Assembly (NCBI RefSeq): GCF_010468615.1
Contig: NZ_WUEH01000018.1
Coordinates: forward strand, 1 to 64,000
Direction of reading: 5' to 3'
DNA length: 64,000 bases
From: Pseudodesulfovibrio sp. JC047
GTDB taxonomy: Bacteria > Desulfobacterota > Desulfovibrionia > Desulfovibrionales > Desulfovibrionaceae
Part shown: one piece after another, positions 1,401 through 2,666 of the stretch
How the letters are laid out: the number at the start of each line of letters is the position of its first letter
Position numbering within the stretch: the stretch's first letter is position 1
Notes under the pieces: generated by a model
What the model was told of the DNA's origin: nothing
Databases searched by the model: none
What the model saw: the letters and a program-made list of their open reading frames with translations, nothing else
Program-made: the position numbers and the translations under genes

Positions 1401-1645
1401 ACAAACCCAAATATGTTCAGAAGGTTAATCCAATGGACTATTCATGGCAGATGATACTGATGGTCAAAGTTTCAAGCTAAAGCAAAAATTCATGAAGCTT
1501 TTTGCATGGTCTTGTCAAGCGTATTCCATACTCAACGGCTCTGTTTATCGTCATTTCCCAACGTTTTTCCCCGGCTCATATGGAGTCATATTTGGAAAAA
1601 AACCGCAATTATGCCATGATACACGGCAAACAAGGAGAAAAGATC

Positions 1646-2098
1646 ATGCAATTGTCTTTAAAGATGCACGCTCCCGATTTTACCCTTGTCGATGTCAAAA
1701 ATCGCACGATTTCACTTTCTGATTTTAAAGGGGAATATGTCCTGTTGGTCTTCAATAGAGGGTTCCTGTGACCATTCTGCCGACGGCACATGGCGCAGTT
1801 GCGCCAAGAATCATCTTTATTGGAAGGCATGAACATGGTCGTCATGGTCATTGGTCCTGAAAGTCATGATGCCTTCAAAGCGTATTGGGAAAAGGAACGA
1901 TTGCCGTTCATTGGACTTGCCGATCCGACACACGCTGTCCTGCAACTGTATAATCAGCAAATAAAATTCCTGAAATTGGGAAGAATGCCAGCACAAATGA
2001 TGGTTGATCCTGATGGGAATCTTCAATTTATCCATTACGGCAATTCAATGGCAGATATCCCCTCCCTTGCTGAAATCGAGACGGTGCTTTCTCGCTAA
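1646..2098 (+). CDS. Predicted selenocysteine-containing peroxiredoxin-like (AhpC/TSA) protein
   Basis: I read this as one 150-residue thioredoxin-fold protein whose codon 42 is an in-frame TGA (1769-1771). The frame is open and homologous on both sides. Before the TGA it has the AhpC/TSA start (APDFTLVDV, ISLSDFKGEYVLLVFNRGFL), and directly after it PFCRRHMAQLRQ. Relatives have a Cys at this position in a CPFC redox motif, so the motif here would be U-P-F-C. A hairpin follows at a distance suited to a bacterial SECIS element. The start was chosen because AAGGAG at 1632-1637 sits 8 bases before the ATG. Members of this family are predicted thiol/disulfide oxidoreductases or peroxidases. The alternatives are a nonsense mutation or a sequencing error. 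The selenium machinery is not in this window. Confidence 0.8.
1791..1806 (+). promoter_or_regulatory. Candidate bacterial SECIS hairpin
   Basis: TGGCGCAGTTGCGCCA is a perfect inverted repeat that can fold with GGCGC pairing GCGCC and an AGTT apical loop. The loop contains the GU dinucleotide typical of bacterial SECIS elements. The loop G (1798) is 27 bases past the end of the in-frame TGA. As I recall, known bacterial elements place it about 16-37 bases away. The element lies inside the coding sequence, as expected in bacteria. This is structural inference from sequence only. Confidence 0.65.
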
Positions 2099-2128
2099 AA
2101 AAAGGTCCGGTCAAAACGACCGGACCTT
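2097..2128 (-). terminator. Terminator between convergent selenoprotein and cytochrome genes
   Basis: An 11-bp perfect stem, AAGGTCCGGTC (2102-2112) with GACCGGACCTT (2118-2128), has a 5-base loop. The A run at 2097-2103 becomes a T run on the minus strand, so it best terminates the cytochrome operon ending at 2184. It may also stop the plus-strand gene, although that side has no T run. Confidence 0.75.
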
Positions 2129-2183: not shown

Positions 2184-2666
2184 CTATTTGAATTCATGTA
2201 CGAGAATATAGTCATTGGCAACCCGCGTCGCATGGCACCCGATACACCCTGCGGGCTTCCCGGCTTTTTTCACGGTTCCATCAGGCATATATTTGACCCA
2301 ATACCAATCCCCGGCATCAGGATTGTATCCCTTAATTTTATACATGACAGTAATCACCAACAACTCTTTTTCGTCCTCACTATAATTTTCCTTCACTTCA
2401 ATGGTTCCGGGCATCACTGGAGCCATCATGCATTTCAACCCCGTCGCATTGACAAAGACTTTGTGTTTCGGCCCATGAGGAGCACGCCCGTCCTGCATTC
2501 CCTCGTGGTCTGGCCAAAATCCCCATTCGGTGTACGGATCAACCGTGGTGATGTATTCCCACAATTTCGCGGAATCGGGACCAGGCATGTCTTCGGCCAT
2601 TACTGTTCCTGCCAAAAGTGTCAGAGCACACGTCAGGAAAAGGGCAATCACACAACATTTTTTCAT
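2184..2666 (-). CDS. Cytochrome P460-family c-type haem protein
   Basis: The 160-residue exported protein has a signal peptide (MKKCC, a hydrophobic stretch, cleavage near A24) and one haem c motif, CIGCH, at 141-145, followed by the NDY segment that ends P460-family domains. The block around PHGPKHKVFVN and the DWYWVKYMPDG segment also fit cytochrome P460. Characterised P460 enzymes oxidise hydroxylamine or detoxify NO using a lysine-crosslinked haem. Whether that crosslink exists here cannot be seen. AAGGAGAG lies 7 bases before the ATG, and the gene starts only 31 bases after the haem membrane protein gene, so the two are probably cotranscribed and may form a periplasm-to-membrane electron path. 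Confidence 0.8.
   Translation of the reverse strand: MKKCCVIALFLTCALTLLAGTVMAEDMPGPDSAKLWEYITTVDPYTEWGFWPDHEGMQDGRAPHGPKHKVFVNATGLKCMMAPVMPGTIEVKENYSEDEKELLVITVMYKIKGYNPDAGDWYWVKYMPDGTVKKAGKPAGCIGCHATRVANDYILVHEFK

Follow-up and report, generated by a model that had tools for sequence, protein, structure and literature searches.

A predicted Prx-like UxxC selenoprotein gene with a conserved SECIS-like hairpin in Pseudodesulfovibrio sp. JC047

The window, a stretch of 64,000 nucleotides from Pseudodesulfovibrio sp. JC047, contains a Prx-like selenoprotein gene at 1646..2098 (plus strand), with 150 predicted amino acids, candidate selenocysteine at residue 42 and a TAA stop. A Shine-Dalgarno-like AAGGAG (1632..1637, plus strand), spotted by eye, lies 8 nt upstream of the ATG at 1646. 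The sole in-frame stop in 1646-2095 is the TGA at codon 42 (1769..1771, plus strand); no frameshift was observed, and TAA occupies 2096-2098. The single coding frame suggested by the original prediction is thus what translation yields, 150 residues interrupted by this TGA only. The motif around it is N-R-G-F-L-U-P-F-C, where Cys45 (1778..1780, plus strand) is the second member of the UxxC pair. When residue 42 is read as Cys, PF00578 (AhpC/TSA) matches residues 8-128 (E 1.9e-21, 76.7 bits against a cut-off of 26), and thus one domain spans the TGA, as had been proposed from the residues on its two sides. PF08534 (Redoxin) also matches across the TGA (residues 8-146, E 1.4e-18). The promoter scan found one site against an expectation of 1.6 from shuffled sequences, and no terminator was detected by the corresponding scan.

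A mechanical ORF call on this gene ends at 1771 or opens at 1790. One possibility is that the locus encodes two short products, one of 41 residues and another of 102 residues starting from ATG 1790, and an ATG is indeed present there in 48 of the 58 TGA-containing family rows described below. However, in the other 10 of the 58 this Met is replaced by Leu (CTG or CTC), no Shine-Dalgarno-like sequence was seen by eye upstream of 1790, and both halves lie in one Pfam domain. We consider two separate proteins very improbable.

Relatives were collected at E<=1e-20, which gave 67 rows, the duplicates L036, L037 and L072 having been excluded beforehand. Two rows, L062 and L063, belong to another family and one fragment lacks the site, leaving 64 rows from two phyla, the window gene included. 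In these fetched loci codon 42 is TGA in 58 rows and TGC in six, with no third residue; this ratio is not a frequency, since the loci were chosen as best matches and the rows are related. As TGC is the sole alternative, the TGA occupies the place of the first Cys of CPFC, in agreement with the original prediction. Its presence is beyond chance, because TGA is retained at codon 42 by relatives from other genera and from a second phylum. Invariant or nearly invariant are Arg38, Sec/Cys42, His48, the Gly-Arg-x-Pro-Ala loop and the Met-x-Asp-Ile-Pro stretch, whereas Cys45 is not invariant. The hallmarks of the subfamily are NRGFxUPFCRxHMAQLR and GRMPAQ.

Among 36 genomes of the genus (threshold E<=1e-15), six have a match, the window's own included, and each match contains one TGA, at codon 42. 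In the phylum and class samples at most nine first-look candidates were scored per genome, so that the counts are lower bounds, and the position of the TGA was verified for fetched loci only. In the sample of the window's phylum, at least 22 of 395 genomes have a match at E<=1e-25 and at least 30 of 395 at E<=1e-15. Each of the 20 rows at E<=1e-40 contains one TGA; among the weaker rows (E<=1e-15) there are Cys paralogues and fragments as well as members of other Prx families. The other sample is of the class to which Leptolinea tardivitalis belongs, a species of the family Anaerolineaceae in the phylum Chloroflexota; we take this class to be Anaerolineae. There at least 124 of 396 genomes, approximately one third of those sampled, have a match at E<=1e-25, and 118 of 119 rows at E<=1e-40 have one TGA, its position being confirmed in L017 and L073-L101. 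The original prediction considered UxxC Prx-like selenoproteins as known in anaerobic deltaproteobacteria. The kind is indeed known, but given the Leptolinea-class counts it is no deltaproteobacterial speciality.

Purifying selection among the relatives persists past the TGA. Nei-Gojobori estimates for 12 pairs gave dN/dS of 0.04-0.32 upstream of the TGA (dS finite in 8 of 12 pairs) and 0.06-0.36 downstream of it (10 of 12). In both pairs with the window gene itself synonymous sites are saturated, and thus no ratio is given for this gene. These values bear on the possibility that the gene is dead, its TGA being due to a nonsense mutation or to a sequencing misread. The break in the mechanical ORF call, which ends at 1771 and restarts at 1790, would fit a pseudogene, as would a decayed relative of approximately 31-35 residues in the same-genus genome G002, which shows that decay of this gene happens within the genus. 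On the other hand, the identical TGA is shared by genomes from two phyla, the relatives are under selection beyond it, the gene has no other stop or frameshift, and the hairpin discussed below is constrained at the codon level. A pseudogene or sequencing error is thus extremely unlikely.

The TGA is followed by a bacterial SECIS-like hairpin, TGGCGC-AGTT-GCGCCA (1791..1806, plus strand), with the stem 1791-1796/1801-1806 and the loop AGUU at 1797-1800. The terms for bacterial SECIS elements, in the part of a 2026 review that sets them out (PMC13188914), are a loop of 3-9 nt, a stem of 4-16 bp, G at one of the first two loop positions, UGA-to-loop spacing of 16-37 nt and an energy of -7.5 or below. 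The window hairpin agrees with all of them, having a 6-bp stem, a 4-nt loop with G in the second position, 25 nt between the TGA and the loop and an energy of -10.0 kcal/mol according to our own scanner, which considers contiguous stems only. The GU-containing loop noticed originally, 27 bases past the TGA, is at exactly this distance, with GU at 1798-1799. As a background, in the 51 long ORFs of the window 726 of 18,993 in-frame codons (3.8%) precede a bSECIS-like hairpin of -7.5 kcal/mol or lower, and 171 (0.9%) precede one that reaches -10.0; such a hairpin at -7.5 was observed for one of the 51 stop codons. The folding energy by itself stands out only a little (z -1.67), and 10 of 200 shuffles reach an equally good fold. 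Raw folding z-scores do not discriminate; conservation does.

The strongest evidence for an RNA signal comes from the codon choice inside the hairpin, although the rows, being related, do not count as independent. In the TGA rows with the UPxC motif, Leu +10 is encoded by TTG in 50 of 50 cases, compared to 122 of 637 Leu codons outside the region; Ala +8 is GCG in 46 of 47 (86 of 383 outside), Arg +11 is CGC or CGT in 48 of 48 (185 of 366 outside), and the Gln codon in the hairpin is CAG in all 49. All six stem pairs are intact in 46 of the 50 rows, and in 48 of 50 the best hairpin has the same spacing, a 4-nt loop and at least five pairs. The energy is -7.5 or better in 36 rows and weaker in 14. 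In the 48 distinct rows 97.9% of 288 cells are paired, as opposed to 16.7-66.3% with slid partners. The covariation counts are three cells changed on both sides (as high in 2 of 500 shuffles), two pairs with both-side change (17 of 500) and five further pair types (244 of 500). A slide by +2 also yields two such pairs and five types, and therefore the latter two counts do not discriminate. In the close relatives L039 and L040 a change of Ala to Thr is accompanied by the matching change on the opposite arm, and in L082 the amino acid changes from Arg to Cys with the pair retained. None of the six Cys (TGC) rows reaches -7.5 kcal/mol, the best being -3.8; in the Cys member L019 five of six pairs can still be formed, with the best energy of -2.3. 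In this gene family the RNA-level constraint on a coding region is legible codon by codon. The contig-end member L059 has UPYT in place of UPxC, yet contains TGGCGC-AGTT-GCGCCA letter for letter.

All four genes of the selenium machinery are present in the genome: selA (C9:56509, 601.2 bits), selB (C9:61145, 398.9 bits) and selD (C23:26653, 338.6 bits) above the curated cut-offs, and selC, encoding tRNA-Sec (C19:23026, 76.2 bits), above its cut-off and identified by ARAGORN as SeC with the anticodon tca. The selD gene has an in-frame TGA of its own, and a bSECIS-like hairpin (-9.9 kcal/mol) lies downstream of it. At the same time TGA is a working stop, since 13 of the 51 long window ORFs end in it. 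One more explanation is decoding of the UGA as another residue (Trp or Cys) with no role for selenium, through an altered code or through near-cognate readthrough. UGAC contexts can leak. However, apart from TGA the fetched relatives have Cys and never Trp, and the use of TGA as a stop, the presence of tRNA-Sec and SelB, and the in-frame TGA of selD with its hairpin all argue against such decoding, for which we see hardly any room.

The original reading of the TGA as selenocysteine is supported by TGA and TGC in the relatives, the hairpin and the sel genes, and selenocysteine insertion at codon 42 is very well supported as a prediction from sequence. The gene has an in-frame UGA, coding conservation on both sides of it and Cys homologues, which is one of the criteria for bacterial selenoproteins. 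We therefore predict with high confidence a single-domain AhpC/TSA protein of 150 residues, in which UGA 1769-1771 would encode Sec by means of the hairpin and SelB, and Sec42 and Cys45 would form a redox pair. As the conservation and the machinery suggest, the hairpin 1791-1806 would recruit SelB with Sec-tRNA(Sec), and for this reason the ribosome would not be stopped at the UGA, which would be read as selenocysteine. The apparently broken gene of this bacterium of the sulfate-reducer type is very probably an intact one, for a selenium-containing redox protein.

The motif of canonical peroxiredoxins is PxxxTxxC, containing the peroxidatic Cys. In the profile alignment to 2ywn, Arg38 is in the Pro column, Sec42 in the Thr column and Cys45 at the peroxidatic Cys, and the product of the window gene has no PxxxTxxC. 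Thus the original description as peroxiredoxin-like is correct as regards the PF00578 domain, but does not extend to a canonical peroxiredoxin. The peroxiredoxins of the bacterial Q/BCP type (2ywn, E 3.7e-17; 3drn, 1.8e-16) and Sec-Prx with TxxU are relatives by sequence profile, but here the redox residue is at the Thr position and not at that of the peroxidatic Cys. Among solved structures these two peroxiredoxins are the nearest by profile, and thioredoxin-family and ResA entries have lower ranks (3hdc, 5.8e-12; 3c71, 1e-10). With Sec42 at the Thr position of Prx and Cys45 at the peroxidatic one, the working pair would be thioredoxin-like.

The product probably functions as a Sec-based thiol-disulfide oxidoreductase or peroxidase. 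Judging by the UxxC motif and the fold family, the Sec42 selenolate would attack an oxidised substrate (disulfide or peroxide), Cys45 would in this member resolve the intermediate as an Se-S bond, and a thioredoxin-type reductant would reopen this bond. The selenoprotein may act mainly as a peroxidase, which we consider a serious possibility with a probability of roughly one in three. The profile ranking of peroxiredoxins above the thioredoxin-family and ResA structures points in this direction; however, PxxxTxxC is not conserved, the retained redox residue is in the Thr column, and the GR-x-P-A loop appears similar to the cis-Pro loop found in thioredoxin-like reductases.

Prx-like UxxC selenoproteins appear in published lists since 2005-2006 (PMC1088965, PMC1794560, PMC2398784, PMC9312934, PMC13188914). 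The entries on Prx-like thiol:disulfide oxidoreductases among them give PF00578, UxxC or UxxU, and the representative WP_010940744.1 (PMC13188914, PMC9312934). The holders include Deltaproteobacteria, and the table that names them does not list such proteins for its two Desulfovibrio species (PMC1794560). The product of the window gene agrees with this description (PF00578 at 76.7 bits; U42-P-F-C45). Set beside the published groups by domain and motif alone, with PF00578 and UxxC in place of TxxU common to both, the gene is a further example of an already known kind. Searches of the open-licence PMC literature gave no paper with a clear description of the UPFC subfamily.

The top NCBIfam match for all six members scanned is NF040769 (SelL_rel_redox), covering about the first 100 residues, but the scores of 65-86 bits are below the family cut-off of 120. 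The window gene itself scores 72.1 bits with this model and 25.7 bits with NF040737 (PrxU, cut-off 270), and the subfamily is under the cut-offs of every NCBIfam model listed for it. Since the six tested members are below the cut-off of their best model, annotated records probably show genes of this type as fragments, and it is likely that automatic annotation misses or cuts them.

The tree was constructed for 62 family rows of at least 140 residues and two outgroup rows; L059 and both pieces of L061 were dropped as short. The match L061 (genome G181) is in two pieces, profile positions 2-62 with the TGA and 59-149, which may reflect a frameshift or an assembly error. The window gene groups with L044, from another family of the same phylum (98/80), and a group of seven rows (97/97) contains L044 and all six genus members, the window gene among them. 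Rows of the two phyla are intermixed in the tree, and therefore gene transfer between the phyla is likely.

Five of the six genus holders have the gene next to, and pointing away from, a flavoprotein gene with Pyr_redox_2 and Fer4_20 domains, presumably GltD-like, and a cytochrome P460-like gene lies on the opposite side. In one of the five, G050, an ORF of 651 aa is inserted between the selenoprotein gene and the cytochrome gene. The sixth holder, G010, has a different neighbourhood. In L. tardivitalis the gene comes after the EamA, UDG and alpha/beta-hydrolase genes. No functional partner is suggested by the gene context in the genus holders and L. tardivitalis. The fetched flanks of 11 loci of this flavoprotein gene in 10 further genus genomes contain no remnant of the selenoprotein gene at E<=0.01. 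The remnant in G002, a genome without the full gene, is C-terminal (L013 1501-1605, minus strand) and seems to represent an apparent gene loss.

L017 of L. tardivitalis (TGA) and L019 of Leptolinea sp. HRD-7 (TGC) are sisters (100/97) with the same gene neighbourhood, and we interpret them as a Sec/Cys exchange at one locus. This makes a natural Sec/Cys pair in two Leptolinea species. Loss of the selenium machinery as the cause of two CPFC forms was rejected, as both genomes (G447, G448) contain selA, the sel gene searched for in them.

In a group of 11 rows (99/96) from the window's phylum, Cys45 is replaced by Ala, Ser or Thr, with the motifs UPFA, UPYA or UKQS. Codon 42 in this sister clade encodes Sec in seven of 11 rows (L054-L058, L060, L109) and Cys in four (L105-L108). 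In genome G136 a single Sec paralogue accompanies four Cys ones, and G062 has two Sec copies. The Sec rows have other hairpins: three of seven reach -7.5, three are at -4.4 to -6.3, and for one the scanner found none. A tentative interpretation, which we hold to be rather doubtful, is that the genes form a widespread unnamed selenoprotein subfamily of two phyla with a near-frozen hairpin, where Sec/Cys42 is the sole invariant redox residue and the sister clade would be a mono-selenol enzyme with an external thiol. If so, the mechanism of the sister clade would be distinct from that of the UxxC oxidoreductases with which it is filed.

A second family of Prx-like selenoproteins, with FYRGGW or FYRGHW followed by UPYC or UPFC and an in-frame TGA, was observed in the same genus (L004 1501-1788 and L005 623-913, both minus strand, in genomes G011 and G019) and in the phylum (L062, L063). 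These FYRGxWUPYC proteins are AhpC/TSA-like, with UxxC and TGA at the codon matching that of the window gene. However, L062 and L063 are set apart on a long branch of their own (100/99) in the tree, which was built without L004 and L005, and the latter two have 32-33% identity over about 95 residues. One search of the window's genome found no match to this family.

The stop codon of the window gene is followed by an 11-bp perfect inverted repeat with a 5-nt loop (2102..2128), absent from the list of the terminator scan. The A-run before it is a T-run on the minus strand. It is possible that this repeat is the terminator of the convergent cytochrome P460-like gene at 2184-2666 (minus strand), and perhaps it serves the selenoprotein gene as well.
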